A stretch of 64,000 bases of DNA from Centroberyx gerrardi (Eukaryota; Chordata; Actinopteri; Beryciformes; Berycidae), in assembly GCF_048128805.1 (NCBI RefSeq), contig NC_136020.1, positions 9,135,653 through 9,199,652 of the forward strand, in the 5' to 3' direction. The position numbers and the translations under genes are program-made. Every line of letters starts with the position of its first letter. Within the stretch, counting starts at the first letter, position 1. The notes below the pieces were generated by a model. That model made no database searches. It had not been told where the DNA came from and worked only from the letters and a program-made list of their open reading frames with translations. Shown one piece after another: positions 10,371-58,593 of the stretch.

Positions 10371-13300
10371 AGTTACCTGAGAAATCCAGGGTGTACGAGA
10401 AGCTATCAACCCTGAAGTGTAGCTGGCCCTGCGGGTTCTGCTGGTACTGTGACTCAATGGCAGCGCTGTCAAATGAACATCTCTACAAACACACACAAAT
10501 AAATCTGTCATACGGAGGAAATACACATTGCCCCTGAACTGCACAGTCACAACTGCACAGTTTAGGTTTTAAGCCTTATTCTGAGTTTATGGGTGTCTGA
10601 TTCTGACAGGTAAACACATTAAAACAAACTACTAAAATCCATTTCCTAGAAAAAAAAAATGTGTTAGCTGACAACAACTGAAAAATGTGCTTGCTTCAGC
10701 TCATCATTAGAAATAATTAATCTTTTAAGTGTTTTCAGTTTGACCACCAGATGCCACTATTCACTCTCTGACATTCATTTCATGGGGAAAAAAAGAGGAA
10801 TAAAAGTTAAATATCTTAAAAAGTAGGCTATACTTTTTTTTTATTGTAAAGCAGACTAGCTGAAAGTATGTAGAGGAGTCCAAAGTTTTGGTGAGATTAA
10901 AAAATATATTACAACTACTATGACTACTACTACTAATACTACTATTATTACTGCTGCTGCTGCTACTAATAATAATGGTGCTAATAATAAAGAAATAGTG
11001 AGAATAGCATGAGTGCACTGGCTTTCAGTTGTCCCACAAACCAAACAGATAAACACCTTTATAACTTGCTGGGACACATCATCAATATGTCAACCTGAAA
11101 TTACTGGATGCTCTACTCACATGTGCTTGGTATTCTGTCCATTGCCCCTCATCTTCCATGAACTCCCACTTGAAGCTGTCGGCTGTGAGCAGCGAGGAGG
11201 CCACTGTGGGAAGAACTGAGTCCGAGAGGAGGCTGCAAGCAGATATAAAAGGCCAAAACATGAGGGGCTTCCAGGGGGAAGAGTCAGGAATAGTAAATTT
11301 CACTATTATTTCTGACTGTTTTGATATGAGCCTGACCAAAGGAGGATCTGTGGTCTATTTGATTTATTTGGGAGTGCTTGACATGAGCCTGAGGAAGATT
11401 TTATGCGTGTGGGATAGAACATTTTTGGACAAAAAATTGGAATCCTGGAGATGAAACCTCTTACCTCCCTGTGCTGGAAAGGGTGGAATTGAGTTTGGGA
11501 CGTCTCCGGACATTCCTGCATACGCCTGTGTGGCAGTTTGTCTGGGCCATGGCTGCCGAGGAAATACGGTCAGTTCGATTTCTTGAAATTGAATTGAAAT
11601 ATACTCGCAGACACACAAACCGATAGCAGTGTCACATACCGGAGAAGTTGAGGGTGTAGGCTGTGGAGCCCACAGTGAATCTGAAGGTTCCCCGAGGGTT
11701 GAGAGTGAACTGACGCTCCACATCTCGACTGCTGACTGAGGAGACGGGCCCGTTGGTGTCCTGATGGAGGGAGGGGGAGGGAGGGAGGGAAGAGAGGGAC
11801 AGAGGAGAAGGAGGAGGACAGAGGAGTGGTGATTGGTGGTGATTTTGCATGCAGAGGCAAGGGGAGATGAGGAGAAATGTGGATTTTAAGACTTGGGGCT
11901 AGGATATCCGAGCCCCCTCCTCACCTTGGTTCCATATTCACACCACAGCTTGTCGTCTCTGAAGTACCAGCCGACGTCCTCCGTCTGGCCCGGAGGCAGG
12001 AAGCTTAGTCTCTGCACCCTCATAGCAGCACTCTGCGTCTCTAACTTATCAAAGTCAATGTACACTCGTCTGTGGAGAGAGAAAGTCCATTCAGGAAAAC
12101 TGGTAATGCTGAAAGGCTGAGGCTGAGGATGAGGCCAGTCAGACCCACACACTGACCCGTAGCCGGCTGTGTTGATGGTGATTCCTAGAGCTCCGGGTTG
12201 GCAGTAGTGGGTCTCGATCACATGGTCGTTGTCAATGCTCAGCCACTGGCGCCTGTCTGACAGCTGCCACTCATAATGCTTCCCACCCCCTGACAAAAGG
12301 AGGAACGTGTGAGTTTTCAGCCCATTCTGCCTTGATTTCTCAAGTAATAAGCATTGATGTGTTCTCAGCCTCTGTTATGCCCTAAGTTAGTCGTATCATA
12401 CACACCTGTCTCGCTTTGTAAATGAAATCTTATTAGTCAGAAACCCCTATGTAAACTTCAGGATGAAGTCATTCTCGTGTTACAGTTTACACATTGTTGA
12501 ACAAACTCTGATATTGACCTGCTGTCTGTCTCCACGACTCTTTATCTGACTCTATTGTTGCCAATCAGACGTGTTTACTTCCTGAAACTATGACTCTGAC
12601 TGAGCTCCAAACTCTGAAACTGATCTTTCATCTCATACATTTTAGGATTTCCCCCGAGATAAGTTGTGTGGCCCAGTGGCTGCTGTGTATTTTTTTATAG
12701 TCCAGGTGGCCTGTGATATTTTATTGTATTTGTAGAGATCAGATTTCTCTGAGCAGATGAGTAGATGATTATGTGCCAGGTTACTGCATTTATGCGTCCA
12801 AATGGAAGACATACCATTAAAGTTGCAGGCATTTAAAATCAGAATTTAATCTTAATAAGACCAGTAAAACACTCTGAATGCTCTCTAAAATCCCTCCTAT
12901 CTCTTCCCTTAGCTCTTACTCTCTGTATTTTCCTAGCACTCACTCTTACATGATCTTTCTATGGTCACAGGAATGTACTGTAGTGAGGGCAGTAACTCCC
13001 TGACCTTTGCACTCTTATTGGTTGCTTGTAATGTTGGTGATCTAGGAATTGAAGCTTAGTCAACTGTAATTGTAAGTCAGTCTGGATTGGATGAGAGTCA
13101 GCTAAATGCCTAAAATGTACATGTAAAAGGAAGTTATTCAAAGATAAATGTAACACAGCAGGAAATTAAAATATGTTTACATACCTGAGGCAGACTGGTC
13201 TGGATTCACCTGCCAATTATAGTCCTCCTCTTCCTCCTCCTCTTCATATCCCTTTAAATTAGTAACATACTTTATCACAAAGACTAACACACCTTGAAAA

Positions 13301-21738: not shown

Positions 21739-24012
21739 ATGGAGATATTGGACCACGCTTATACGTGCACCACATATGATAAAATCAACCCCGTGGAATT
21801 CACATATAAATGTAAGTATAGGCGAGAGGAAATGCCATATTTCGACACATCTTGACACAGTTTACACGGTTAGCTAGGCTACATAGCAAGTGGCCTTCAC
21901 GGTGAAAGTACCCTATAAGCACTCTAACGTGTAGCCTAACTATACCAGGAATTTAACAAACCCTGTTCACCCAATCACCAGGTAGTTTATATTTTGTTGT
22001 TGTATTCACCTAAGATGCCCCATTCAGAAGCAATCAACAGATTTTTGCTCGCTTTTTGATAGTTGATTGTTTGTTGCCCAAAGCCTTCTTCTTAACAGTT
22101 TAGAAATCACTGTTAAGCACAACAGCTTTGAGTGGGTTATTGCTTTGATTTATATATAAAAAAAGATGGCAACACACCATTTGAATTACAAAATGAAGAA
22201 CCAAAATGTTTAAATATTTACTTTTTAAATAAATAATAATTAAATATGATTATTATGATTATGATAAATTATTCTTCCGCCAAGCAATATAGTTCTTGAA
22301 CAGTAGATAGACATGGTGGTTGCTAAAGGACACATAATTAGCAGTATTAGTGATGATTATTATGCTTTATTGGGTATTTTACAGCAGATTCAGCCAAACA
22401 GAACTGAGGATCTGTTTTATAACAGTCTTTTATACAACAGCTCCCATGCAATATTTTTTGATTTTCTTTTCTCTCAGTGAGTCCCAAGGAGACTGAAGAC
22501 TTTGTGAAGCTGAGGGTTTCAAATAATTACCTCTTCTCTGGCAGGAGAAATTCCTCCATGTGGGCATGGAGGTAAGCCAGCAAATTAAAATTCTCAAAGA
22601 TGTTAGTGTATGAAAATGAAAAAGGTTTTAGCAGGTATACTGGTGCAGTAATAGAAAGAATCCAATCTAATGTGATGTTCGGCATTCATATTTTTCTTTT
22701 CTCATTAAGTTCTACTGCTTTTGTTTTGTATAATACTGTAAACCATACCTTTTCTCATACCTTTTATTCAGAAACTTACATATTCCAGTGTTGAAAGTGT
22801 TGGTTGTGTATGTTCGTTTAACCTCCATTTGCCATATTCATGTTTATATTCACTTTGTCTTTGCTGTAATCTATTACTTATTATGGAGCTTCCCCATGAG
22901 GATCATTACTTCCATCTTAAAACAAATATCTTATTCATAAATTACTGTTAACCTGGAAAGACCCTGACCTTTGATTGATGGTGACAAATACTATAAGGAG
23001 TTCATTATCACAGGGAACATGATTTATTGCTGTTCTACTAAACTGCATTTGTAAACCACTCTGCTGATTATAGGGCCATCCTGAAACATATGGGCTTGCA
23101 CCACAAGATGACGCACAGTCAGGCAGCCAAAAAATGGGAAAACATGAAGAAGAAATACAAGGTACTCCGTTTGATCCCACTTGGATTCATCAAGTATTGT
23201 GAGAGATTTTATTTTTCAGTAAGTCCTGACTGTTTGCGCTTTCTCTGTCTCTCCAGGAGCTGAAGAACCCTCCAGAAGGGGTGAAAGTGTTTCCTGAAAT
23301 GTGGCCTCATTTCACCCTGCTGGACGATGCCATGGAGGGCCGGCTGGAGGGCAGCGCCCCCATCCTCAAGGCCTTCCCCGATGACAAAGACGATGACAAT
23401 TTCTTACCCAGCTCCAGACCCAAGAAGAGGAAGATTTCCATGATGAAATCCACGCCTTCCGTTTTGATGGTAGCCGGGCCGGAGATCGAGGTCTCGCTCA
23501 ATGGCGACGAGGAGGGGGAGGGTGAGGAGGAGGAGCAGGGAGGAAGCAGGGAGATAGAGCGCATCATGCAAGAGGTGGAGAACGAGAGGGCCTCGCTGGA
23601 GAGCGAGAGGGCGACGATGGAGAGCGAAAGACAGGTGATGGAGAAGGAGAAGCAGGTGATGGAAAGGGAGAGGCAGGTGCTGCAGAGGGAGAGAGCGGCG
23701 CTGGACAGGGAGGTGGCCGCTCTGGACCGGGACCGGGCCTCGCTAGAGAGAGAGAGGGCGATAATAGAGAGGGAGAAGGCAGTGATGGAGAGAGAGAAGG
23801 CGATCGTGGAGAAGGACAGAGACGCTGTGAGCAGGGACCGGCTGGCTCTGGACAGAGAGAGAGCCAGGCTGGAGAGACTGGCAGCAGCCAAGGGAAGGAC
23901 AGAGGAGGTTACAGAGAGAGGTGAAGACATCTGCAACATAAAAACCTCTGAGCTGGTGGACAGGAAGGAGCGGTTCCTCAACTTGTTTGAAAAGCTCATT
24001 GAAAATTTCTGA
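21739..24012 (+). CDS. Myb/SANT-like DNA-binding protein with 14-heptad coiled coil
   Basis: Exons 21739-21811, 22478-22571, 23074-23161 and 23257-24012 join in frame to about 336 residues. Residues ~25-115 form a trihelix Myb/SANT-like domain. It shows the usual pattern: FVKLRVSNNYLFSGRR, MWAWRAILKHMGL, QAAKKWENMKKKYKELKNPP, then EMWPHFTLLDDAMEGR. A basic RPKKRKIS looks like a nuclear localisation signal. An acidic Glu run precedes 14 consecutive heptads of the form (E/D)RERAxL, giving a long charged coiled coil, and the end is RKERFLNLFEKLIENF. Such domains are common in fish transcription-factor-like and Harbinger-derived proteins. The target is unknown. The gene is tail to tail with epiphycan. 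The start is the only ATG before a clean donor (TATAAAT/gtaagt). Confidence 0.85.
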
Positions 24013-25488: not shown

Positions 25489-28400
25489 TTAGATGAGATC
25501 CCCGATGGGTATGCGGGGCAGGCAGATGTAAGCCTGTGGGGTCCTGCTGAGGTTGATGGGGTTGCCGTCCAGACGGATGTCCTCCAGCGCGTTCCTGATG
25601 TAGTTGAAATCCTTCAGGTTGCAGAACGTGTCCTCGTGCATCATTTGAATGTTGTTACGCTGGAAAAGCGGTTACAGGAAAATACATGAGAAATCGTCTT
25701 CATGGGTATTTGATTAGATTTGATTTGATGAAACCTTAATGATCCCTGTAGGGAAATTGGGCCAATGCAGCATCAGATAATAGGATATAAAAGGATAGAA
25801 CAAATAGAGAGTATTGGCAAATCATAGTATGATTCTAAACAGATTTTTGAATACTGTCAAGACGTACAGTAGTCATATCTCATTCAGGTCTCATTTGTTT
25901 CTTTTTTCTGCTCGTCAACAATTCAGAACTTCAACCTCCAGAGGTCACTAGGGTTGGGGCTCCTAAACCTTTTGGGTATAATTCAGTCTGAAAATTTGTT
26001 TGAACGATGAACACATAAAAGTTGTGTGCACACATTGTAATGGCCAAATACAGTAATTTTTCATTTGAAATAACTATCATATTTCAACTACTTGAAAATG
26101 ATTATGTTTTTTATAGGGACCCCATTTTCATATTGGTGGACCGTACAAGGGGTTCTGGGTTCTGCATTATGCTTTGAAAATTTCAGTTACAATCATGACC
26201 AGTGGGTGGCAATGATGAGAAACTAGGCCAAAGCAAGTACCTGTAGGTGTAGAGATCGCAGACTGTCTGGTAGAGGCACAGGGATGTAATCAATGTGGTT
26301 GTCTGTTAGGTACAGGTACAGCAAGGCAGTCATATCCTGGACACAATGGGAAAAGATACAGATTATTATCAATCTAGACCTTTAGATGTCTGTAAATGTA
26401 GTACAGTATTGTGACAGAAATTCATTTCAATTCAGTTCAACTCTATTGTCATTCCATCTTACAAAAATGCCCAGTGAAATAAAACCTTTTCCTTGGGGCC
26501 ATGGCACATTCCAAACAAGAGTAACCCAAGAGCAGCACAGACAATATAAAGAAAAACAGTGCAGTCCAATATTACCAGTAGCAGTATACAGTGTGTGAGT
26601 GTAATGGTGACTAGAGTGTTGCACAGAACATCTTGTAGCTGTACGTACTTTGAACGCCTCTCTGTGAATACCCTTGGAGCCAATGTTATTATGACTGGCA
26701 TCAATGAGGGTCATGGTCTCTGGCAGAGCGGGCAGCTGTGAGATGTGATTTTCTCGAATCACCAGCTCCTCCAACGCTGGCAGACCCATAAACGCCTTGT
26801 CATCGATGGACGTGATCTCGTTGGCGGTTACGTCAATCCTCTTCAGCTTGTCTGGGAAGAGGCAAGAAAACACACTCTGAGACACTGCTCTTAATGTTCA
26901 CTGACAGTTCACTCCAAAATCAATAAAAAGAAGGGGTCTGATTGAATACATTTACACTGACATTCCCCTTTAAATTTGATTCTGAACATCACTGGTCTAA
27001 TAATCATACAAATCCATTTTCATTCAAAAGGGAGACATGGACGTACTCATGGAAGCGAAGTCAGACTTGTTGATCTTGGTGATTCTGTTGTAGCGGGCAT
27101 AGAAGTGAGTGGTCTCTTTGGGGAGAGGTGGTACACTATCCAGCTTCAAGTCATCGCAGTAGACCGAACTACCAAGGCACGTGCACAGCAGGCAAGTGGG
27201 CATACCTGGAGCACATAGACAAACATGAAGAAGTGACAGAGGAGGGAGGAGGCAAAAACTGAAGAAGTAAAAGAGGCGGAAGGTATTTCAGAGGATAGTT
27301 GTGTTGGATTTGAATGACCAGGCTATCAGACTTGATCCCAAAAAGCCTCAAGAGGCCCTAATCCATAGGGCGTAGTCAATCAAAGTTCGATAGTAGGATT
27401 TCAGAATGAGATCAGTTTCCCCTTCAGTACCCTGTAAAACCTACAGGATTAATTGTATTATTGGATTTTAGACATGTATCGCCATCTTTCCTCTCCAGGT
27501 TCTAAAATGAACTGAGGTTTTGATTGTACTTCTCTGCTTGCAGCGCCTGTGTTGTTCGGTACTGACCTCGCCTGTCAACTTCAGGCTCATCAGGCTCGTC
27601 GGGCTTATCGGGCTCATCGGGCTCTGGCAACCCAGAGCCCGCTGACCCTTCTGTACTCCCAGCACCCTCCTGAGGGGTTGTTGGTGTAGTCGGAAGCAGC
27701 TCCTCCTCTTGTTAGAGACAAGATTAGGCGTTAAAGAAACAGGTTAGACCAGCATGGACATGGAACAGGAAGCCTGGCAATCAGTAGCCCACTGTTTGCC
27801 TCAGTGATAAGTTACACATATTAGCGGGGTTAACAAATGTTTACAACACATTTAACTGATGAATGGAAGTTAAATGAGAATAGGTTTTTGGTGTTAATCA
27901 AATGAAGTATGACATGTTGCTGACAGGTTACAAACAGTATGCTTGTTAGCAAAGAACACCATGGGAAATGGTCTCGAAAACACTTTTGGAGGAAGTCAAT
28001 ATAAGTGGGGTGATGAATGGAAGACTATACAGAATCCAAGGACATTATTTGCTTATAGTCAACTGAAAGAGTTTGGCCTTTATTCTCCTCTAGCTGGGTC
28101 CATTGTGGCTTACAATAGATGTCCACAGTGGACTAGCTATCCATATAATTTACCTCACAAAGGGAAAAGAAAACCTGCATATTGAATATTGCTCCTAGTA
28201 ATCTTCATTTGTACAGTTTCAACTCCAATCGCTCCACGAGTAAAGCTTACTGGAAGCACTATTCAGTGTGAAGGTATTCTTTATCCTTTGTGATCCTTTT
28301 TTCTTTACCCTACAATCTTAAGATACCTCGCACAAGTCTAAGTTAGATACTGACCTTCGTCAATGTCTGGGATCAGTGTGACCCCATGGTCCTCGTCTCC

Positions 28401-31400
28401 AGAGCCAGAGGCCCCAGAGGCCCCAGAGGCTCCAGAGATCCCTAAGTCTCCAGAGGCTCCAGAGGCTCCAGAGGCTCCGTCGTCCCCTGAAGCCCCTGAG
28501 GCTCCTGAAGCTCCTGAGAACTCCCCAGAAGCACCTGATACCTCCTGGGGGATAGTGTCGGGAATGAGGGGCAGCTCCTCCCCTTGTTAGAGCCAAGGGG
28601 TGGGGTCAGGAGACAAGAGGTTAGGAGGGTGGGGGGGCGGGATGGACAGTCAATCAACCCATTAACCAATCAATCACACTCACAGATGAGATGAGACAGG
28701 AGGTTAGGATGACAATGATTACGAGTAAGACAAATACAATGACAAACAGTAGAACAGATGAGTGAAATTACCATTACAAGTAAAGAAGGGATTATCTACA
28801 TTTAACTACATTTAATATGAACGCAGTTAAATGGAAATTAATATAATTTAACATGAAAATCACATTCATAGAGTCAGACAGGTTATTTCAACAAAGATCG
28901 AGAAATGGTGTTGCCATGACCCTTACTAATTCACACAGCTGTTTCAAAGCTACCTACACCTTAAAACAGTGCTCTTTTTCCCGGTCCTGGAAAGCCCTCT
29001 GGTATTGGACATTTCAGGAATATTTTGGGTCAAAATCAAGGGTTATCCAAGACCAGGAATGAAGAAACACACGTCTACTCTGTAGAAGTTTAGGTACTAA
29101 CCTTCAGGTATCAATGTTATCCCTGATAACTCGTCCCCAGAGACCCCAGAGCCTCCAGAGGCCCCTGAGCCCAGGTCATCCCCAGAGACCCCAGAACCAA
29201 ACAGGTCCCCAGAGCCTCCAGAGCCCAGGGGGAGGTCACCGGAAATCCCAGAGCCTCCAGAGCCAAAGTCTCCAGAGGCTCCAGATCCCAGGAGATCCCC
29301 GGATCCCAAGAAATCCCCAGATGCCAAGAGATCCCCGGATCCCCCGGAGCTGAGGAGGTCCCCAGAACCTCCGGAGCCCAGTGGGAGGTCCCCAGACCCC
29401 CCAGACCCACCGGAGGCCAGGAGGTCTCCCGAGCCCCCAGACCCAGAGGCCCCAGAAGCTCCCGAGGCCCCAGACCCCACGGAGCCCCCAAAATCCCCGG
29501 AGATATGAAGGATGTCAATGGGCGTCAGACGCAGCTCCTCCTCTTGTTAGAGACAAGATTAGGTGTTAATAAACAGACAGATTAGACTGAAATGGATCAT
29601 GAATCAGGTTTGGAGCCTGTGAGTTCACAATGATCAGGTTAAGTATTAGCTGACAAATGGACACAATGATTGCACAGAACACATTTAACCAATAACAGCT
29701 AGTTAAATGGAACACATGCACAGGGAAAGGCAGATGTTTGAAGGAGGGGTGATTACTTGCAGAGGTAGGAGTGTAGAGGATTTGTGTGTCTTTTAGTTTT
29801 GCGTGTTTATGTTCATTATTGGTAATGCTGGTTTCACACCTCCATGTGCATAAGAGATAGCCAGGCGCTCTCTCAGATAGAGTGCACTTTGGATATCAAG
29901 TGACTTCATGTTTGTGAGTGTGCAGACTTGAATGCGCGTGCTTTTTCAGACCTTTCTGTGTGTTTGGGCCCATGAGAACCCCAGATCCCCCTGAACCCTG
30001 GGGGATCAGCTGTGGTTTTAGGGGCAACTCTTCCTCCTCCTCCTCCTCTTCCTCCTCCTCCTCTTGTTCTTCCTCCAGAGAGGCCTCAGGTACAGGGTAG
30101 TTATAGTCAGGTGGGGCCAGTGTTCCAATCTCTATCTGAGGGGAAGACAGGAGTGATGAGTCAACGCATGTATGAGGGAATTTAACTTGTAGATCACCAG
30201 GAATTTGAAAAAAGACAGTGAAGAATCTCCATATCCATCATGTTCTTTCTACAGGAATGGAATGTCTTTTTTTTCTTGGTTGAGGTGTCAATACATCAAA
30301 TAAAAATAAAAATTGACCTTTTAGCAAGCAACAGCCTTAAACGGTTGATCATCACTGACACACATAGGAAACTGTCAACAAGTCAAAGTAAACTTTTGCC
30401 TGTTTCTGCTATTGCACAAACTCCCTGCTTACTCTTATTTTTTTTCTAAATAGTAAACAAATTTAACCCTTTTATCATTACTCCCTGGGAAATACAGGCC
30501 ACGATCTCTGTGCTATTCCAACATAAATTAATTGTATTATGCATAATTCTGAGCAGATGATACCTCCTGGTCATTACATACGTATATGCTTAACAACTCT
30601 ACTGTTGATTTCATAAGAATGGTCAGAAATTAGAGAAAACTATGACTTTCCTGTATTTAGATTAACTTACATTTTTTTTTGCGTGTATCTAGTCTTTCAT
30701 ATCTAAACCGTTTTTGGAATTTGAAAGAGATTAATATGATAAAAGACAACTTTGGACCAAGAAACAGGGCATCGAGGCCCCATCCAACCACATTCAGACA
30801 ATAGGCATTACTATCATGAATCATAGAGGACAACATAAACAATGTGCAAAAACTCAAAGCTCATTTTGACCCTGGACAGCTTTAGCACATCACACTCCTG
30901 TCAACAGGCCTAACAACGTGTTTGTTTATCAGTACACAACTGCACATTTGGAATGGGTGATATTTCCAACTACAAAATATTAGACAATTAATTAATTGGC
31001 ACAACAGCAATATATAGCAAGAGTTATCTGCATCCTGAGTAGTCACAACACTCTATAAGCTTTTCATTTCAAAGCTGTCATTTTTTTTGACCATGGCAAA
31101 ATAAAATGTTGCATGAGAATGAGGAAGATGAGCAAAGTTAGAAAAGTTAGCAGGGAAACCCACTAAGACAGTTCAGCCATCTCATCTTGTATATGTATAA
31201 GGTGGCAGCAGTGGCAACTCAACTCAGACTCAAGAATGTCTGTGTGATCATGCTGATGGTTAAAGGTTGAGATATGGCTTGACCTCACATTACTTTCGGT
31301 GCGGCTGGTGTTTATTGAGGACATGGAAAAACACTGCTCTATTCATGCAAAACTGGCACAAATGACAACACAAGACCCTCTCAGTCTCTTAATATCCTAT

Positions 31401-31753: not shown

Positions 31754-31796
<43 letters not shown>

Positions 31797-34700
31797 ATCA
31801 TTTCTGTCTCTCTCTACTGTGATTCAATCCAATAAGGCAAAAATGAACTTTGTACTGAGATGTCACAGGTCAATAGTGTGGCCTCCTCCAACTGGGAACA
31901 AACAAACAACCAGCACAAGGTCGCCCCCACAATACATTTACCTCCCTATTTCCACCACTAGATGGCAGCAAAGTGTGCAGAATTGAGTGACCAGAGGCAA
32001 AGACAGCAATGGCCACTCAGATGGATCCTCCAAGAAAATACAGGAGTAGAGACACCAGTGATGGTGAGAGTCACAGTGATACTAGTAGCAGTGACAGGAA
32101 TAGTGAAATTGATTCATTTTGAGGGTAGAGATTGTTGGTTGATGGTTAAAGACACAGACCTTCAAAGTTTTAATAAAGCCTTAACAAACTGTGGAGTGTG
32201 CATCCAAGGACTAAAGACCAAAACCATGTTCAACTCCCGACTCCTGCCAAGCTTCAAAATCAAATGATTAGGTCAATTTTTTCACACCCTTATTTATCAA
32301 AAAGTGCAGCATTAAGGTATTTTGTGGAAAAAATACAAATTGAGGGACAAAACTTAATGAGTTACAGCACTTCCCATCCCTTCACTAAAAGCCTCCGGTC
32401 TATCCATCTTGCCATATCACTGCATTTACAATCATCTGATATTTCTGGTGTGCAGTATGATGAAACTTGCAGTTCTATCATTCTCCAGACGAGGGCAATG
32501 AAACCCCACACTCTGCCACAGGTAATACCTGACACTCTCTCATGCCCAACAAGGCTGACTCGATCTTCCAAAGAGGGAATGGTCCTTGTGGAACCAAGAC
32601 ACACATGGTAGCTGCAAGAATCCATATTTTTCCTTTTCAACTACTTTCAACCACAGTAGTTAGCTGTCCATTGGCCATCAATAGAATTAAATCAAAGCAT
32701 CAGGAAACACCTGAGTATAGCCTTTAAGTGATAGCTCACTAAAAAAACACATGTGATTAAAAAGCTGTGTCTTATTAGTCCAGCAGAGACATTTAATGCA
32801 GCAGTGAAGAGATATCCAAAACTGAATGTCACTCTTGAGAGCTTGGCAGAGACAGAGTTTGGGATATAACAAGGTAGGCCTTTGAAAGGTCTTGCACAGA
32901 GTTAGCTCGTTGCAGCTCTCCCCTCCACTTCCCCCTTCCCCAAAGCAAACATATACACCCGGGGGAAAGGAGAGGCGAAAGGCTGGCTACCAAAAATACA
33001 GAAAAAAACCTCTGGGAAACAACATGGGAATACAGAATGCACAGGGAGAGACGTTGAATGTGAGCATCAAGTCAAAGCCGAATCTTATGCTGCTGCACTG
33101 CATGGCATACATATCAGTGAATGCATTCAACACGGTAGATGGGAGAAGTTTCAGCTACAAAACGCTAGAACAATTTTGGAAAGTTAGTCTTCCATTGGCT
33201 GGATTGATCCTTTGTAAAACATCTTCCAATACATGCAATGAAAAAATGATTTGCCAAGTTGTCGATTGAGTAGTACTAGTTCTGTACTAGTTCTCTTTAG
33301 TGCTGCAGTATCATGTGCTCTGAAATCTCACCAATCCACACCCAACATGATTCATCCAGAGAAACATGCAGTGTCATCTGTAATGTCGAGGTTAATTCTT
33401 GTACAGTGTGCAGCCTTTTGAGAAGCCATATTGCAATTTTTGAGTCATACATCTGTGGCTCTCCAACCCAGAGCAGTCAGTAAAACACAGACAGAAGCTA
33501 TGGGTCACTGAAAGTTTCACCCCCTTTGTAGCTTAAGGCAAATAAATCACCATATTGTGGACCAGCTAAAAGGTGAAAGGTCAGATCAATATTCATGTCC
33601 CTGTTTGTTTTCAAATAAGATGATTTAACATATTAATAACAGGGAAAATCATGATAAGGTAATATGTTTGATGGAATGGTTGGATAGGGGCCGCGGTTGG
33701 ACATGGTATGACTTTGGATGTTTTCCAAGTGGTACAAATGAGCAACTATGAAGACAGTTAAGAATTAAGCTCAACAGCTTCAAATAACAAAACCCACTTG
33801 TTCCTGAAGGTGTAATTTGGCTCGTGAGACATTGGTAAAAGACAGACACGGTATGTCAAATTAATGGCCCGAATCTGAAGTTGGAAACCAGAAAGTTTGC
33901 AAAGAGTTTTGACTGCAGCAGACTGTAGAGGATTTGCTTGAATAACATCTTAGATAGCCTTTGCTTCTCTCGAAAGACACAAGCCCCGAGGAGAAAGAAA
34001 AGAATTACCAAAAGAGAGCTGGATGTGGAAAGTCGAGACTCAGCATTCCAGAGGCATGGATCTCATCATCGCTTCATTTCTCCCTTGACACTTGACATTG
34101 TGTGTGTGTGTATGTGTGTGAAATCCATTCAGTCTGCACCCCCTCTCCCAACCAGTCTATCTCAAGATCTGCCCTCTCACCTTTAACTGCTGTGTCAAGG
34201 AGACAACATGACACATCCTTGCAATATGATATCGCTCAACACTGCAACCGTGATAGTCCAAGCTTTGGGCTTTTTCACTGCACACCACTGCATGAGAAGG
34301 ATTCCAAAAACTGGAAATGAACTGTTTCTCTTCTCCCTGCTCCCACATATTCCCACAAAGTCTTATGTAATATGCTGTATCATATTCAAAAACACCCAGG
34401 GTTGTTAAACAGCGAGCCATTATCAAACCCGTTCCAATGCAACACATTACAACACACTCTTTCCCACACTAAGCATTGTAAGCTGTAACACTAATCGGTA
34501 ATACTTTGCACACTCTTCACTGACTCAGGCAAAAGGTTACGATTCTACCTTTTTTCAAGGGAGGATGACAAAATCATTTAAGACAGCAACACTGCCTCAT
34601 GTCGTTAGTTCTATTACATCTTGTTGTATCAGCTAAATCTGCATGGGATTGTGGGATAGGTCTTGGACAGCAGCAGTCGTGTGAGTGCACTCCACATCAG

Positions 34701-36842
34701 GTTTAAGTTAAGCGGCTGGCTCAGAGGAAGCCTGTTGAAAATCTGATCTGGACGATTTGCCTCATGCCATCTTGACATTGTTTTGGCCTAATTTCCTTGT
34801 TACAAAGAAATATAAACGGGAACATGAAACTTGGCTAAAGCTTTCCTTCCCAACTCGCATTGCAGACTGGCCACATCACATCCAACTTGGGCTGACTTGA
34901 AGGGCACTTCTGGAATCCATTTTTCCTGTTAGTAACCCCCTCTGCCTTTCTGCACTCATCTTTTAAGGGTTCATGTGCTGAGCAGAGTCTGAGCAGAATG
35001 ACAAAGGCACTCAGCCTCAGACAGCACAGTAGTGCTTGATTTTTGCCCTTCTTACAATACAGCAGGTCACTCTCTACTTAGTTACATAGTTACTTAGTAA
35101 CCAACAGAATAGGATGCACATACAGAGAAATGACGCCATTCCAGCTGCCTATCTTGCAGGCCATTTACAATCACCTGCTGGATCTTGATGAAGAGTGTGT
35201 ATGTTATGGTCAATGGAAGAACATGGTAAATGCATATATTGACCCATCTACGTGTACAGTGACCATATCCCTGCCTTGACTGCAACATACATTACTTTAA
35301 TATTATATTAATCTAATTATACCCATTATACCCATTACTTCATCCAAGATATTTCTTTGAGGAACTGAATTTGAATTCAAAATGAAATGCAGCTCTGACC
35401 TAAGGCAAACCACAGTCCAACAACACCAAGTTATGAACATATGTATTATTCATATTCAGTGTAACATTTTTCCACACAGGTGATTTTGTTGAAATTTGCA
35501 TGAGCAAACCTGTGCCTGCTGCGAGATTAAAAGATGTAACCTTTCATAGATTTATTCAAGCAGATAAATTACATATATAGCTTTCACTGGGGCATAAATA
35601 ATAATATAAATTGTTTGATTCCATGGGTAAAACTGCTCCAGATGCAAATGGGTTTCAGCCTGTGGAAGATCTAGGGCATATAACTTAGATGGTAGCTGGC
35701 CAAGGTATAAAAGTGAAATATTTTGGCCATAATGGTGGTTGAGGCTGGAAAGCAGTCTGTCCATCTTCCAAAAGGCCCCAGCTGGTATCAGCAGGACGCT
35801 TGTTTGCTCCCTGAACTTATTGAACTCAGATCAAAACCAAGCAACCGATTCACCAGTGTTACACTGTTCTTCAGAGTCGTGGAATCTGAAGAAAATCAAG
35901 AGTTTAGAGAATTGTAGCAGCGTGCATAATTGAAATGTGATACGTGTATCATATTGATCTGATATTATGATTTGCTGTCTGTCTCCACAAATCTCCAGAA
36001 ATCACTCAACTTTGCATGGGAGGCATGAGCATTACAATCCAGAAAAAACTGATGTGCATCTCATAAATGTTTAGTTCAAATGTCCTTCAGCCAGTCAGTA
36101 TGTACAGCACAGCAAGTTGACCATGTTATACTACTAAACTATAAATGGTAAATGTTGCATAACTCATGTCAGTCACAAATGATGTACACTAGATTCTTCA
36201 TCCTATGAAGGGCGTGTAAAGGATTTGTTACTATTCTAATGAGCAGCCTAAATAACAACATGGATAAAGTAATGGCAATCAACCCTCTTGTGTCCATGTC
36301 ATTATATATGAAGCCATAATGTATCACTGATAGTTACCTCAATACCATCAAAATGAGGAACTACAAATCCATTTGCTTGAATTGTACAAAATGTTAGAGA
36401 TACCAATTCATAAAAGTGACCAGTGGATCCAAAACTATTCAGTGCAATTTGCATGTCTGTGAATGAGGGGGTGAAGAATTAAGATAAATGTAACATATCA
36501 TTAATGTCAGACAATAATTCCATCATCAAAACATAGGTGTCTCCTTTGTAAATGTATCTGAAATTCAATAATTAAAGGTCGGTGTATTTGCAGGATGAAA
36601 ACTTGGTCAAACCAGTTCCTGTTGTCCTTGATGGACCCATGGTTTCTTACCTGAGGATCATCAATTGTCAGCCCATCTTCATAGTCATAGATATCCTGGT
36701 TCTCCAAATTTAAGTTTTCTAGATCCACATCATAGTTGGCACTGTCGTATCTGTCTAATTCCGCTTGTCGGGCAAATCTGGGGCCGGCCACCACCGCTTT
36801 GAGGACGAAGAGTCCCAACACGAGCCGCACAAGCATCCTCAT
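25489..36842 (-). CDS. epyc: Epiphycan with expanded Ser-Gly region
   Basis: Epiphycan (DSPG3, PG-Lb) is a class III small leucine-rich proteoglycan of cartilage matrix. Coding exons: 36842-36651, 30135-29952, 29542-29102, 28582-28355, 27707-27567, 27205-27047, 26851-26649, 26336-26241, 25659-25489. All joins are in frame, giving about 604 residues against 322 in human. The start MRMLVRLVLGLFVLKAVVAG aligns with human MKTLAGLVLG and lies just after a good acceptor; an in-frame ATG 15 bp upstream is within that acceptor. The N-terminus is acidic and Tyr-rich, then poly-Glu. Three extra exons are rich in Ser-Gly. Next comes the class III cysteine cluster C-X2-C-X-C-X6-C (CLLCTCLGSSVYC). The leucine-rich repeats follow, and the C-terminal end is NPINLSRTPQAYICLPRIP, almost as in mammals. 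About 47 Ser-Gly dipeptides could carry chondroitin/dermatan sulfate chains. Confidence 0.93.
25727..25790. repeat. Dispersed repeat piece in epiphycan intron
   Basis: CCTTAATGATCCCTGTAGGG followed by AAATTGGGCC is the same degenerate fish repeat motif as at 17455. Confidence 0.5.
26415..26600 (+). mobile_element. Retroelement fragment in epiphycan intron
   Basis: TTCAATTCAGTTCAACTCTA followed by TTGTCATTCCATC and CCAGTGAAATAAAACC resembles the 3' end of a common fish LINE/SINE (usual form TTTATTGTCATT...ACAATGAAAT). It ends about 50 bp before the acceptor-side exon at 26649. Family not assigned. Confidence 0.5.
27567..27707 (-). CDS. epyc: Epiphycan duplicated exon 3 (acidic Pro repeat)
   Basis: A phase 1-1 exon of 141 nt. 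It opens EELLPTTPTTPQEGAG and contains one Ser-Gly, then a DEP/DKP repeat (EPDEPDKPDEPDEPEVD). Same head as the two Ser-Gly exons, so a third member of the duplicated series that has diverged. Confidence 0.8.
28355..28582 (-). CDS. epyc: Epiphycan Ser-Gly exon 2
   Basis: A phase 1-1 exon of 228 nt. It opens EELPLIPDTIPQEVSG and carries about 14 Ser-Gly dipeptides (runs of ASGASGASGD), ending VTLIPDIDEG. Start and end match the exon at 29102-29542 (EEL...; TLIP.), showing they are duplicates. Confidence 0.85.
29102..29542 (-). CDS. epyc: Epiphycan Ser-Gly exon 1 (largest)
   Basis: A phase 1-1 exon of 441 nt (147 codons). It opens EELRLTPIDI and then runs about 30 Ser-Gly dipeptides in units such as GSGGSGDLLASG and GSGASGDFG, ending ITLIPEG. 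Acidic residues near Ser-Gly favour glycosaminoglycan attachment. The plus strand appears as tandem CCAGAG/CCCCAGA motifs. Confidence 0.85.
31478..31680 (+). mobile_element. Non-autonomous repeat, copy 3
   Basis: CAGTGATGCAGTGGCTAATA, AAAAGGTGGGTAAACTATGA and GATGATCACCATAAAGCAAA align with the head of the copy at 19091. A second GGTGGGTAAACTC lies near 31631. No coding capacity. Confidence 0.5.
31757..31792. repeat. (TC)n microsatellite
   Basis: About 18 TC units in epiphycan intron 2. Confidence 0.9.
31955..31968 (+). promoter_or_regulatory. CTCF-like motif (full core match)
   Basis: CCACTAGATGGCAG matches all 14 positions of the CTCF core CCASYAGRKGGCRS. It lies in epiphycan intron 2. 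Confidence 0.5.
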
Positions 36843-43313: not shown

Positions 43314-44733
43314 TTAGATGACGATGGACCTGAGGAGACGGAAGCACAGAATGACATCCCTGGGAATTGGTGGCTTAATCTCATTGCCATCTAGTCGGAG
43401 GTAACGCAATCGAGGAACACTTTCGTTGACATAGTCATCCAAAGCCTCGGATGACACGGGGCAGACATCGGAGCCATTCACACCTGTAGTTGCACAAAGG
43501 AAATGATTAATGATTTTAGACGTGAGATAGCGTTACAACATACCCATTTAGTAAACAATCTAATCTAATAAATGCATTAAAGCAAATGTCAGGGGATTTA
43601 TGCATTAGCATAAGGAATATAACATGTTCTGCTCATAATCAGTGCCAAGGGCTTACAGATCACAGTTTTGAATGATGATGTAGGCTACTGCCATTGAGTA
43701 TGAATAAAATGGGGATGCTGCAGTTCAAATGAAGCATTATAATCACCAGATCAGGATTATGTGTATGACCAAGGATACAGATGAAGTTGTTTCTCTAGCT
43801 TTTGAAGCTACATAAGGCAAAACGTAGTGGGAGTTGAGGTTCAGCGCTTTAAGAAAATGTCACAGACTTACTCTTGATCTTGTTGTGGTCGAGGAGAAGG
43901 TGTTCAAGGCCTGCGGGAATGAGGGGCACCTCGGTCAGCTGGTTGTGGGACAACTGCAAGTCCAAAATGCTGGAGATGTTGAACACATCTTTGGGAACCC
44001 CACCGCTGCCAAGCTTGTTGCGGTTGAGCCTGAGGAATGCCATCTTTGGCAAGCCCTTAAAGTACCCGGCTGGGATCTTCTCAATGTTGTTGCCATCCAG
44101 GAAAAGCTGGGTGGTGGTGGGTGGTAGGCCAAGAGGCATGTTGCTCAGCTGGTTCTTCGCTAGATTGATCTGTACCAGGTTGTCGAGACCCTTCAGGCTC
44201 ACCTCAGTCACAGCATCATCCATCAGCTTGTTCCCCTGGAGGTCCAGCAGGCTAAGCTTGTACAGACCGGAGAAGACACCAGCAGGGATCTTGGAGATGC
44301 GGTTGTGAGAGAGTCGTAGCTGCTCCAGGCTGGACGGCAGGTCAGATGGCACAGTGGACAGGAGGTTGTCATCCATGTAGAGGTGCACCAGGTGAGACAT
44401 TTTATTCAGGACACCTTCTTTCAATCCTTCACTAGTGATTTTGTTGTGGTTGAGGTTCAGCCAGCGCAGCTGTGTGGCGTTGCGCAGGGAATCTGCTGAG
44501 AACACCTCGATTAGGTTGTTCTGCAGGTAGAGGTACCATGTGTATGGAGGGATTTTGGGGATAACCTTTAGGCCCTTATTGTCACAGTAGACGGCATTAG
44601 GGAAGTTGGGTGGACAGCGACACTCACGGGGGCAGGCTTGGATCTGGGCCATATAATCCTCATAAGGCATGTCCTGACCCAGAACTGGTCCAACCAGACA
44701 CAAGATGCAGAAAAGGCTCAGGAGGAGTGCCAT
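43314..44733 (-). CDS. kera: Keratocan
   Basis: Keratocan is a class II keratan sulfate proteoglycan of the corneal stroma that regulates collagen fibril spacing. Coding exons 44733-43872 and 43483-43314 join in frame (AAGA/GTGTG), giving about 343 residues (human 352). A signal peptide MALLLSLFCILCLVGPVLG is followed by the class II N-terminal cysteine cluster C-X3-C-X-C-X9-C (CPRECRCPPNFPNAVYC). A full set of leucine-rich repeats follows, and the C-terminal disulfide segment ends RLRYLRLDGNEIKPPIPRDV then ILCFRLLRSIVI. The start is the ATG at 44733, 13 nt after the acceptor, with a strong Kozak context (GTGAAATGG). Transcribed from an upstream non-coding exon near 49275. Confidence 0.97.
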
Positions 44734-44746
44734 TTCACTGCTCAAC

Positions 44747-47700
44747 CTATGGTGGAGAGAGAGGAAAAACAGTATTATTGCCAAATAGCTATAGAATATA
44801 TACACAGAAGAGGACAGTTTTATATTGGCCTTGAGACAGAACAGGTCATGGAATAGAACTGGAGACTTCTGTACACTCCAGATATCCAAGGTAAAGAGGA
44901 TCAGATAAGGGACTTTGAGGAATTAGGACCACACCGTTAAGTGATGACCTATCCTACCTTTTTGTACCTGAGAATCTGTACCTGTTTCCATTATGCTTTT
45001 TCTAGATTAACAGTCAAGGTCAGGCAAGCTTTCAAGCTCTAGACATACTATAGTATTAACAATGCTGTGTTTTCCAGGCTGTGCAAATGTAAAAATTGGC
45101 TTTTTTCATTCAGACAAATCTTGTGGCTAGCTTATTCATCAATCACAAGTGATTGCAAATTCAGCAGACCATTCAACTGTTCGCACATGTACAAACATTC
45201 TAAGTTAAAACTGTTGCCCAAATTAGCCAACATCAGTGTATATCGAGCACTCTACCACTAATGTAACTAACATCCAAGTTCCAATGGTGGTTGCCAACAT
45301 TGCCAAATAAAAAGCGCATCCTGTGCATTTCCAGGTCTTCACTTTGTTTGTGAATGACAGGTAAACCTCTTAAAGACAGGATGCAGAGCCAGGTCAACTT
45401 TAATTGCATTACTACTTGGCTGAAGGACAATCTTGGAGCTCAGACGTCAAGCTGTCTCCGCATTTCCAGTGGTTGTATAATTTGGTTCATCAGGCTGTGA
45501 GTGTGTAAAATGTCTGGCAAAGTCCATCTGGCTTGCAACTCAGCCTTTGCTTGGTACAACTGATGCGATGATAAATGGAGGTAAACACACATGCAAGCAC
45601 ACACACATACACACATATTGCAGCCGTGCATCACATACAATAAGCTGAGAAGAATTGAGTTCTTGGAGGCCATGGACCAGAGAGGCACAAAGACAAAAAG
45701 GAGAGGAGAAGGAGGGAAGAAAATCAGAACCAAGTCAGCTCTGCCATCTTCCATCCACCCGCCCCATCAGTCTGTACTCGATTCCCCTCAGCTGTCATCT
45801 GGTGCTGGTTTAAATTCTTGATGCACTCCACGTTTGTCTGGAACTCATTTTGGATACGCCAAGCTTTTCCATGGACGGGCCCACTTCAAAGACAAGGCCC
45901 GCACACCTGTTTTTAGAGATGTGCCCCTGACACCTCGTATCTCACTGTACTGGGGTCAAAGGTTAGTGACCCTGCTTCTCTTTGGAGCAGCAGGTTTGGC
46001 ACACAAGATAAAGGCACAACCCATGCTTCCATAAAAATGAAACCCAAACACTAAAGTCACAAGACAACAGTTGAGATTTTTCTGTCCCTTTTAGATGCAA
46101 ATTTTGTTGGTAAGCCCTAACATCATCATAGGCATAATGATTAGGAAAGTTTGACTGCAAACTTCTCAATACTAGCAACCCAGTCACTGCACAGCCATAG
46201 ACGTAGAAACCAACCTACCTTAAACTCAGTCAGTTGCTTCTTGCCTATGTCTTCTCTCAGGAAGGTATCAAGCGTAGTTCCAAAATGTGAAGCTACCTCT
46301 CACCTCCCCTGTATTTGTACCACTAGCCGTTCCATTCAGCTTGTGCCAACCCCTCAGTGATGGGACACCAAAGCTTCTCTTGGCCAATCAGACGCTCCCA
46401 GGATCAGAGGTCATAATCCCATGGTGGACACTACGCTAAGCCTCCTCAGTGCTTGAGACATGGCCTACTTAGAAAAAGGCTAATGCAAGCCTACCCATAC
46501 TTTGTTTGCTAACTTCCACATGGCCAACCCTTCCGTCCATGGTTGGCATCGTTGATCTTGTTGTAGCTCTAGTACAAATCCCTTCCTGCCCTTTGTGCTA
46601 ATTTTGAGCTGCTGTCGTGCATGGTGAGATCAGATTTAATTAGTTTGCTGGATTATGATGTTGTTGCTCTCTTTGTCTTAGGTGTATTATGGCAGCAAGA
46701 GATTCACATCTGACTTATCAATCATGACTCGTTTTGACTTGACAATGACAGTAATAAATGGCTCTTGTGTTGCCTTCACTGTAGCATGATGTGGCCAATA
46801 TTCATCTCTTTGTCCAATTTGAAAAGCCTGACTTTGTGCAGTTCATTCCTATGAATTGTTTGATTTGCTACTTCGTAATACTCAGATACAATATGGTAAT
46901 AGGTAATTATGAGGATTTTGATAAGCGTTTCAATTTACATTGTCAAGAGAAAAAGCACGTTGGAGCAACTGTTCAGGCTTGTTCTATCAGTGCAGATAAC
47001 ATCTGACACACGAGGATGACACACTATACTTTAGTACAAAACAGTGTGTGCAGACATGAGAGCTAATGGTGTTATAGGCGGGATGAGGTCAGGGTAAATC
47101 TAAGGGGATTTAAGGGGTAATGCAGATTGGCTAGGCAAAATGTTTTTGAAGAAGGAGCGAGCATCAGGATGGGTGAGGGCTTTCAACGTGTCAGCATGTT
47201 GGCTCATTAAGTGCGTTCTCATTTCCAATGGTGACGGCAAAGGCTTGAATGCAACAGGATAATCCTGCCTGACTGGGTGTGTGAGGATAGGAGCAACGCT
47301 TATAGAGACTGTATGTTAAAGAATTATTACCAGGTAGATGAGTGGACAGTATCTTACATCAGGCACCATGCCCATCTAACAAGCTTTGCTAAGAAATTAG
47401 ACTGTTTGCACAGTTTGATTTGACTTACATAAATGTACAGACAACACTACAAGTCACTGAGTTTTGAAATCCTCTTCTTTGTGCACCTTCCTTAAAATCC
47501 TTGTAATTTTGTCCCAACAGCTCTCATCTTATGGATATGCCTTATCCTTGTTCTAGAGATAAAAGACATATACTAAACCATTTTGAGCACATGCCATATT
47601 TCTATAGCATGACACAGTTTGCTGTCAAAGTACAGGGGCTGGATTCAAACTGTTGAAATAGCAAGTATTTGGCATGCAGCATAGTCTGTTGAGGCACCAG

Positions 47701-55924: not shown

Positions 55925-57304
55925 TTAATCAAACATGATATCTGTAGCTTGGCGCAGGCAGTTGGAAGTGTCAGGGGGCATGTTGCTCTCTGTGACGTTG
56001 TTGGCATCCAGACGCAGATGCTTCAGATTGGAAAACTTGGTGGGTCCAATGTACTTGCAGAAACTTGCCAGGTCAAACTCTACAAAGAGACAAAAATGGA
56101 CAGAAAGTGGTTTGAGTTGATAAACAGAAGCAAAAACCTCACTGGCCATTTCCTCACAAAATTCATTACTACTATTATTAATAAATCTGTAAAGCTTGTC
56201 TTTGATATCTGATGTGACAATGATTTGTTAAAGAACGTGCTAGAATTTTCCTCAACCAATTATGCCAGGCAAAAAGGTCAATAGTGACAAAAGAAAAATG
56301 GCTATGGCATAACAGCAAAAGATCATTATACAGAAAATAACAACCAAATACAATATTTGGAATTGTATGATGCTTTCAACTGGGCATCGGAAAATAGTAA
56401 AAAGGAAAGATTGGCACGAAAGCCACTTACTGTTGATCTCATTGGCCTGGAGGTAGAGTTGCTCCAGCTGCTCATTGATCTCAGGGATGGACTGCAGTTT
56501 GTTGAAGGACAGGTCCAGCTCCACCAACGATGTCACGTTGAACACGCCAGCAGGGATCCCAGAGTCCACCAGCTTGTTGTGGGAGATCCTCAGGTACTGC
56601 AGCACTGGCAGCTTGTTCAGGTATCCTGCTCCGACACCGTCAATGTCGTTGTAATCAGCATAGAGGATTTCCAGTGAACTGGGGACCCCAGCGGGAAGCT
56701 TCTTCAGCTTGTTGTGGCTCACATCCAGGGACAGCAGCTTCTTGGGTCCCTTGAAGGCCCCGGAGATGGCCTCGGATGTTAGCTCGTTGTGCTGAATGTT
56801 GACGGAAGTCAAGTTCTCCTTGTCAGTCAAGAGTCCAGAAGGGAACTTGGTCAACTTGTTGTACATAATCTGCAGCTCATCAAGGGACTTTGAGGGAGGA
56901 ATGACTGGTTCTGTGAGGTTGTTGTAGCTGAAGAACAGCTTCTCCAGGCCAGTCAGCTTATCGATGGTACCCTTGGCGATCTTGGCGTTGGTGATCTGGT
57001 TTTTGTCAAGTATCAGCCAGCGCAGTCCAGCAGTAACATTATCGAACACTCCTGCCTTGATCTCTTCGATCTGGTTGTTCTGCAGGTACAGGTACTTGAT
57101 CCCCGATGGAACCACAGGGACAAACTTGAGCTTGCGGCCGTCACAATACATGGCACTAGGGAAGTTGATTGGGCACTCACACTCTTGGTTACAATTGGGC
57201 CCTGAGGGTCCTAGTTGGTTAGCAGGCTGGTCGTCGTAGTCATAGTACTGACACAAGGCCAGGCTGACCAAGGCGGCCAACAGGGGAATGCGGAGAGGAA
57301 ACAT
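55925..57304 (-). CDS. lum: Lumican
   Basis: Lumican is a class II keratan sulfate proteoglycan that controls collagen fibril assembly in cornea, skin and tendon. Coding exons 57304-56431 and 56079-55925 join in frame (ATCAACA/AGTTT), giving about 342 residues (human 338). A signal peptide MFPLRIPLLAALVSLALC is followed by a Tyr/Asp cluster (QYYDYDDQ) typical of tyrosine sulfation. Next are the class II cysteines (CNQECECPINFPSAMYC) and leucine-rich repeats with N-glycosylation sequons such as NLT, NVT and NNLT. The C-terminal disulfide part has FCKYIGP and TSNCLRQATDIMFD. The start is chosen at 57304, five nt after a clean acceptor (CCCCAG/AAATCATG); the frame is open upstream but only within the intron. 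Confidence 0.97.
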
Positions 57305-57309
57305 GATTT

Positions 57310-58593
57310 CTGGGGATCCAACAAACAGAAGGGAAGGGGAGGCAGGGCAGGAGACAAGACAAATGCTACAAGTTAGAATGGCCAAGAGTAACAACAGAGG
57401 TTGACTTTAAATGTAAACTGATAATCTTAAACAGGAATGGGACATAAATCAAATTGTTTTGTTGAAGTCCACATGCCGCAGTTGTTGAGTTCTAGGGAGT
57501 TCAGATGGGGCATTATGATAATTTTAGTTGAAGTCAAATCAATCATCAAATCAAATTTATTGTCAAAGATAATAAAGTAAAGGAAAACAACTATGATGCT
57601 GAAAGGAGGTCCCCACTACCCCCCTGATCCCCCCCCCCGATCCCCCCCCCCGCCCACCCCCCCCCCCCCCCCCCACCCCCCCCCCCCACCCCCACCCCCA
57701 CTCCCCTACCCCCACCTGAAATAACCATAGGGTAAACTCGGGCAATAAAGACCACATATTAACTATGATAATAATAATAATAATAATAATGGATCGAGAG
57801 TTCATGTTAACCAACTGGGGACCAATGAGTCCTACATTCCTTGATTCAATTATCTGTGTGTGCAGCGACAACCCCTAGCCACATCATTACAAGAAAACTT
57901 GAACCATACTGCATACTGCATTGCTAACAGCACAACTTTATCAACTTGATAGAAATCTAAATATAAACTGGTAGTCATAGCAATAATGCATTGCAGATGT
58001 TTAAAAGATATTCATACTGTGTATGGAATACTCAAGAGAATGATTATAGTCCTTGGTTAGGTTTCTAAATAATGTAGCAAACACAAATGAGAGAGATAAT
58101 AAAAATATCCCTCAAACTAATCACTAAAACATCATGACCATATAGAATGAAGTACATAATGCATAAACCAGAATGGTGTTACAAAATAACAATAAAAATG
58201 CAGAGCTATGAAAAATGCAGACAGACATGAGTTACAACTGCAACAGATTAACATTTTCCAAGCTCTAAAGTCACTGTAATCCATTTAAACCGGCATAAAA
58301 AGGCACTGCAGGAACAAATTAACTTATATATACATACAAAAGCTAGATTAATGCACTGTTGTGGGTTTTCCTACTGCAACGTGGAAATCGTCAGACTTTT
58401 AGCTGCTCCAGCACCACTCATTTTTTGTTCCATGCACTATTATTCTTGCCTTTTCCGCTGAAGCACTAGCCCTGTGTCCCAGCCACTGCCCTGGAGCCTA
58501 GCAGTGACAGTTGATAATCCCACCCGGAAAACAGAAATAAAGTGGGATAATCAAACAGGAAATCACAAATCCACTCCTCCACATGCAAGCTTA
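57310..58593 (-). other. lum: Lumican intron 1
   Basis: Holds a long C-rich tract (57618-57716, G-rich on the transcribed-sense strand), a (TAA)n run at 57767-57790 and a short AAATCAAATTTATTGTC repeat-like piece at 57548. No exon. Confidence 0.65.
57618..57716 (-). repeat. C-rich / G-run tract with quadruplex potential
   Basis: Many runs of five or more C on the plus strand, separated by A, T or CA. In the lumican pre-mRNA these are G-runs with short loops, the pattern required for G-quadruplexes. Homopolymers up to about 20 bases make this region assembly-sensitive. Confidence 0.85.

Follow-up and report, generated by a model that had tools for sequence, protein, structure and literature searches.

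Does the epiphycan gene (epyc) on the minus strand of a 64,000-nucleotide stretch of the Centroberyx gerrardi genome (hereafter the window, C24:9135653-9199652) encode a small leucine-rich proteoglycan with an exceptional number of potential glycosaminoglycan attachment sites, and how could such a number have arisen? Human epiphycan has 322 residues, and small leucine-rich proteoglycans are usually described with one or few chains. Exon joining in the window gives an epiphycan model of 604 residues without internal stop, matching the approximate length given in an earlier note on this DNA. The model has 47 serine-glycine (Ser-Gly) dipeptides, most of them in extra exons, designated A, B and C. 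Our preferred explanation, which we consider reasonably probable from the genomic sequence, is that epyc carries three tandem-duplicated cassette exons, and that splicing would set the number of predicted chain sites.

Gene model and identity

The following exons of the model are used throughout; positions are those of the window.

36651..36842, minus strand: first coding exon, with signal peptide and a Tyr-bearing acidic N-terminus; donor CAG/gtaaga
29952..30135, minus strand: exon 3, with a poly-Glu tract and a tail with two Ser-Gly (IPQGSGGSG), ending in phase 1
29102..29542, minus strand: extra exon A, 441 nucleotides, phase 1-1, 147 residues, 30 Ser-Gly
28355..28582, minus strand: extra exon B, 228 nucleotides, phase 1-1, 76 residues, 14 Ser-Gly
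27567..27707, minus strand: extra exon C, 141 nucleotides, phase 1-1, 47 residues, 1 Ser-Gly
27047..27205, minus strand: exon encoding the first leucine-rich repeat (LRR) and, ahead of it, the class III cysteines CLLCTCLGSSVYC
26649..26851, minus strand: LRR exon
26241..26336, minus strand: LRR exon
25489..25659, minus strand: last exon, with the C-terminal LRR, cysteines and the stop codon

The start codon was taken at 36842, and a further in-frame ATG exists upstream. The interval 27567-29952 is bounded by the donor ends of exon C (at 27567) and exon 3 (at 29952). The Glu tract of exon 3 (29952-30135, minus strand) consists of EEEQ followed by 12 uninterrupted Glu, a codon repeat that is possibly length-variable.

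By its cysteines and repeats, the minus-strand gene is epiphycan, a class III small leucine-rich proteoglycan, in agreement with the identification made in the earlier note. The cysteine cluster has the spacing CX2CXCX6C, which is that of class III (PMC6293640). The repeats match Pfam LRR_8 (E 1.1e-21). Among solved structures the closest is chain 9wxp, an opticin, which aligns to residues 126-332 of the short form at E 3.5e-73; opticin and the remaining class III member, osteoglycin, belong to the same LRR family as epyc. The LRR domain, the class III cysteines, the acidic Tyr-bearing N-terminus and the gene neighbours are all shared with epiphycan (EPYC, DSPG3, PG-Lb) of other vertebrates. 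Two LRR open frames that we take to be keratocan- and lumican-like lie near it on the same strand, consistent with its reported position in cluster C next to kera and lum (PMC11917481).

A search of the 779-Mb genome gave four C24 exon matches of 85-98% identity, the remaining 66 of the 70 listed matches being only 24-62% identical; among the best 150 of 261 candidates scored, epyc is a single-copy gene. Only FMOD, OGN and ECM2 are named as duplicated in teleosts in PMC6293640, and epyc is not one of them.

Ser-Gly content and acidic context

The 270 residues of the insert hold 45 Ser-Gly, compared to 13.0 +/- 2.8 (maximum 24) in 2000 residue shuffles, a density far beyond chance. The earlier note had counted about 45 in the three extra exons and two in the preceding exon, and our tally is the same: 30 in A, 14 in B, 1 in C and 2 in exon 3. 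The dipeptides are, however, spread very unevenly across the cassettes. The description of a three-exon Ser-Gly brush fits A and B, but not exon C, much of which is made up of a Pro/Asp/Glu repeat in its tail.

It had also been suggested that acidic residues lie near many of the Ser-Gly, as xylosyltransferase sites prefer. Asp or Glu does occur within four residues on either side of 37 of the 45 insert sites; yet this is not above the 33.8 +/- 3.3 obtained from 5000 shuffles in which the Ser-Gly units were kept intact. Upstream of the insert sites, Asp and Glu are depleted (13 versus 22.2 by shuffle), whereas downstream they are enriched (30 versus 22.6). When four residues upstream and three downstream are considered and the exon 3 sites are included, 29 of 47 sites have an acidic residue. 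The overall context and the upstream depletion both weigh against heavy glycanation, and acidic flanks were dropped as support for xylosyltransferase sites because overall they are no commoner than composition predicts.

The same figures suit an alternative that we regard as unlikely, albeit the most serious competitor: the cassettes are translated but serve mainly as a flexible acidic spacer, unglycosylated or lightly glycosylated, and most Ser-Gly carry no chain. In addition to the acidic context, only 7 of the 45 insert sites are GSG followed by Asp or Glu. Moreover, the Ser-Gly are often spaced by three residues (mostly by three or more, and non-contiguously), and the frequent three-residue spacing makes full occupancy seem sterically unlikely. 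Against the spacer, the third-position bias of the repeats (see below) argues that Ser-Gly itself is maintained, and Ser-Gly followed directly by Asp or Glu is enriched, at 16 versus 8.6 by shuffle. Furthermore, chains are attached most often at Ser-Gly, and a preference of repetitive Ser-Gly for heparan sulfate has been reported (PMC4598785); the chain type of the long form could thus be either heparan or chondroitin sulfate. Under the preferred explanation, in which the cassettes add chain sites, a "bottlebrush" glycanation of the long form is plausible.

Splicing of the extra exons

All eight inclusion/skip combinations of A, B and C leave the frame open, giving proteins of 334 to 604 residues with 2 to 47 Ser-Gly; the shortest, of 334 residues, results when all three are skipped. 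The exons fit the expectation for skippable cassettes, and the split between their acceptors, which end in AAG, and five other tested epyc acceptors, which end in CAG, hints at cassette splicing. Two observations count against this interpretation: the cassettes and the constitutive exon at 27205 have the same pyrimidine count (11/16), and the donor of the latter exon agrees with the consensus at 5 of 9 positions, fewer than the 6 of 9 of the exon 3 donor (AAG/gtctga). The splice signals therefore do not clearly separate the cassettes from the other exons.

Short and long splice variants of epiphycan are reported in ray-finned fishes, credited to work on zebrafish by Zhou et al. 2006 (PMC7310474). 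The long form is already in print, and hence it is not new as such. The long splice variants are cited for zebrafish dspg3l; the variants of C. gerrardi are predicted from genomic DNA, and here the insert consists of three exons with 45 Ser-Gly. We found no description of Ser-Gly-rich exons, or of an origin by exon duplication, for fish epiphycan among the papers listed in literature searches with few subscription journals included, to the extent of titles, the openings of abstracts and selected passages. The earlier statement that epiphycan had "turned into" a bottlebrush is not supported as worded, because skipping of A, B and C would keep the reading frame and both variants have been published. 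The gene structure is real and unusual, and its extra exons are best read as cassettes through which a small leucine-rich proteoglycan could gain chains.

Poor inclusion is a further possibility, which we find improbable: the exons would be rarely or never included, as relics or as minor isoforms with no role, and the 334-residue form would be the working protein. The AAG acceptors, set against CAG at the five others tested, and the exon 3 donor with its 6 of 9 consensus positions agree with this possibility. Conversely, of the 9 donor consensus positions, A and B each have 8 and C has 7, no stop interrupts the frames of the three exons, the repeats show the third-position bias, and long fish variants are in print (PMC7310474).

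Coding status of the extra exons

Besides their phase 1-1 structure, exons A, B and C have GT/AG ends, and they look like genuine coding exons. In exon A, the Ser-Gly frame alone is stop-free over the full exon; one antisense frame is also open in exon B, and one other sense frame in exon C. To characterize the repeats, similar 18-mers at lags divisible by three were compared and their mismatches scored by codon position. The mismatches at positions 1, 2 and 3 amounted to 13, 30 and 57% in exon A and to 13, 26 and 61% in exon B. In 300 simulated neutral 9-base arrays, under a simple scheme of independent substitutions, the top phase share had a mean of 0.38, a 95th percentile of 0.43 and a maximum of 0.51. 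We read the third-position bias in A and B as a likely sign of selection on the protein.

This reading is weakened by some of the other arrays in the window. Seven of nine had a top phase share of 0.45 or below; however, the array at 11777-11826 (42 mismatches) reached 0.48 and the CT dinucleotide array at 31757-31815 (149 mismatches) reached 0.77. Short simple arrays can thus be skewed, and the measure is trustworthy only for longer, mixed arrays such as those of A and B. It should also be noted that one of the nine, at 23588-23859, falls in an open frame and is no sure non-coding control. Plain base identity by codon position, compared over lags from 9 to 36, gave a less clear picture than the mismatches did: it was highest at position 1 throughout, and positions 2 and 3 were close in most exon A rows.

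Origin of the extra exons

The cassettes are most alike at their acceptors. In the acceptor regions, A and C are identical in 49 of 54 columns, and a stretch of 27 bases, variable at two positions, is common to all three exons. Its 20-base core, CTAACAAGRGGAGGAGCTGC, has three exact matches in the entire genome, all of them at A, B and C, and the reversed control has none. The 20-mers across the acceptor junctions are located as follows.

29531..29550, minus strand (C24:9165183-9165202): acceptor junction of exon A
28571..28590, minus strand (C24:9164223-9164242): acceptor junction of exon B
27696..27715, minus strand (C24:9163348-9163367): acceptor junction of exon C, CTAACAAG/RGGAGGAGCTGC

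Similarity at the donor sides is weaker, the observed score being reached by 3 (A-B), 16 (A-C) and 5 (B-C) of 500 shuffles. At the protein level, 1 of 2000 shuffles equalled the similarity of A to B, none that of A to C, and 21 that of B to C.

Several matches point to exon 3 as the source. The 14-mer AACAAGAGGAGGAG, present at the A and C junctions, recurs in the same frame in the exon 3 Glu tract, a match as good being found in 0 of 500 shuffles; the gapped match of exon 3 to B was equalled by 5 of 500. In addition, the exon 3 tail, EELPLKPQLIPQGSGGSG, aligns with EELPLIPDTIPQEVSGASG of exon B at the protein level with a score of 54, whereas the maximum among the shuffles was 47 (0 of 2000 as good). 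On the other side of the balance, exon A resembles exon 3 weakly as a protein (28 of 2000 shuffles score as well), exon C shows no protein match to exon 3 (379 of 2000), and exon 3 shows no match to the cassette donor sides (485, 375 and 230 of 500). Taken together, A, B and C are diverged tandem exon duplicates, whose source was probably the exon 3 tail with its two Ser-Gly. The likeliest course is that a partial copy of exon 3 gained an acceptor at CAAG of the Glu tract and was then duplicated, and that Ser-Gly repeats (mostly 9-base or multiples) subsequently grew in A and B, with the protein under selection.

The tail of exon C might be an inverted copy of the Ser-Gly array. On the plus strand opposite this exon (27566-27670), a 35-residue open frame contains 6 Ser-Gly, as if the Pro/Asp/Glu repeat were inverted with respect to A and B. 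The corresponding DNA similarity of the inverted tail is weak, 16 and 26 of 300 shuffles being as good for A and B, respectively; in the same-strand comparison the numbers are 210 and 28 of 300.

The genome carries what we take to be one opticin-like and two osteoglycin-like genes; since osteoglycin duplicates are characteristic of teleosts (PMC6293640), the pair makes a teleost genome likely. None of the three genes contains a frame of at least four Ser-Gly per 60 residues within the 9.6-9.9 kb scanned upstream of the exon with the cysteine cluster, unlike epyc.

These data also bear on a very improbable explanation, that GC-rich non-coding intronic minisatellites, or assembly duplicates, have been taken for exons. 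Tandem repeats do overlap A, B and part of C, and other long open frames are present, e.g., 29101-29505 on the plus strand. However, an intronic minisatellite was rejected on the codon-phase bias together with the splice anatomy, i.e., the splice sites and the phase 1-1 ends. Assembly duplication was rejected in turn, since the exons are mutually diverged and the searches matched these places only: the shared acceptor occurs three times in the genome, exon A (window 29097-29546) has one genome match in a DNA search that passes over simple repeats and highly frequent words, and exon B (75 whole codons) has one among the best 150 of 189 candidates scored. The extra exons described in the earlier note thus look real. 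Finally, a short collagen-like trimer formed by the Gly-X-Y-like runs of exon B (GAS repeats, 28404-28517, minus strand) was rejected as extremely improbable: Pfam Collagen does match residues 295-332 (E 0.00041), but its 20.5 bits are below the curated cut-off of 27.2, and the run lacks Pro and is interrupted.

Proposed model and expression

If the exons are duplicated cassettes, as we favour, skipping of all three would yield an ordinary 334-residue epiphycan. Inclusion of A, B or both would add a flexible stalk, to which A contributes 30 potential glycosaminoglycan sites and B 14, and which would separate the acidic, Tyr-bearing N-terminus from the LRR domain; the A+B form, with 44 sites, would present a charged brush ahead of that domain. 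Splicing would in this way tune the chain number, and hence the charge and water per molecule, in notochord and cartilage matrix. Such tissues agree with the expression of epyc elsewhere: at 36 hours in zebrafish it is weak throughout the notochord and strong in parachordal cartilage (PMC10665197), and in catshark it is found in chondrocytes and notochord chordocytes (PMC11917481). A transcript from the midshipman saccule also matches epiphycan (PMC4641692).

A more elaborate version of the model is tentative, and we would not expect it to hold in full. According to this version, the cassettes are co-derived and share one unusual acceptor, and splicing dials the number of potential chain sites from 2 to 47 in eight forms. 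The long form might then be a mixed heparan/chondroitin sulfate brush, given the reported preference of repetitive Ser-Gly for heparan sulfate, and might control how the notochord sheath and cartilage swell or how they store growth factors.

A more than tenfold rise in potential chain sites by skippable exons would offer a natural test of the role of chain number in cartilage or notochord, in an animal group that is amenable to editing. The structure further suggests how two attachment sites could simply become dozens, through exon duplication followed by the growth of short in-frame repeats.

Comparison with other Ser-Gly-rich proteins

Serglycin (SRGN) has a dense Ser-Gly run that serves as a many-chain attachment stalk, and the density of the epyc insert had been likened to it. 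The comparison is fair as to layout, both having a dense Ser-Gly stalk. It does not extend further: epyc is an LRR protein, its Ser-Gly are for the most part at least three residues apart, and the model has no Pfam match to the serglycin family PF04360 at E up to 0.1. A PF04360 search of the genome also gave no match; it was uninformative, as 14 control genomes were silent as well. In the chondroitin-sulfate domains of aggrecan, tandem repeats within one large exon give many cartilage Ser-Gly sites. Epyc resembles aggrecan in having tandem-repeat Ser-Gly sites in a cartilage protein; the cores are unrelated, however, and the epyc repeats lie in small skippable exons.

Neighbouring genes and other features of the window

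Two further open frames with LRRs lie on the same strand as epyc.

43852-44922, minus strand: LRR open frame with class II cysteine spacing, CX3CXCX9C
56255-57406, minus strand: LRR open frame with class II cysteine spacing, CX3CXCX9C

We take these to be keratocan- and lumican-like genes. The structure search covered the first of the two frames, and the nearest solved chains to its product are fibromodulin and osteomodulin.

Elsewhere in the window, a 260-residue open frame on the plus strand (23230-24009) contains a 147-base tandem array encoding a highly charged repeat; a Pfam search of this frame gave nothing at a threshold of E 0.001. On the minus strand, an open frame at 11889-12374 matches a WWE-type domain (PF23466, E 1.6e-7).

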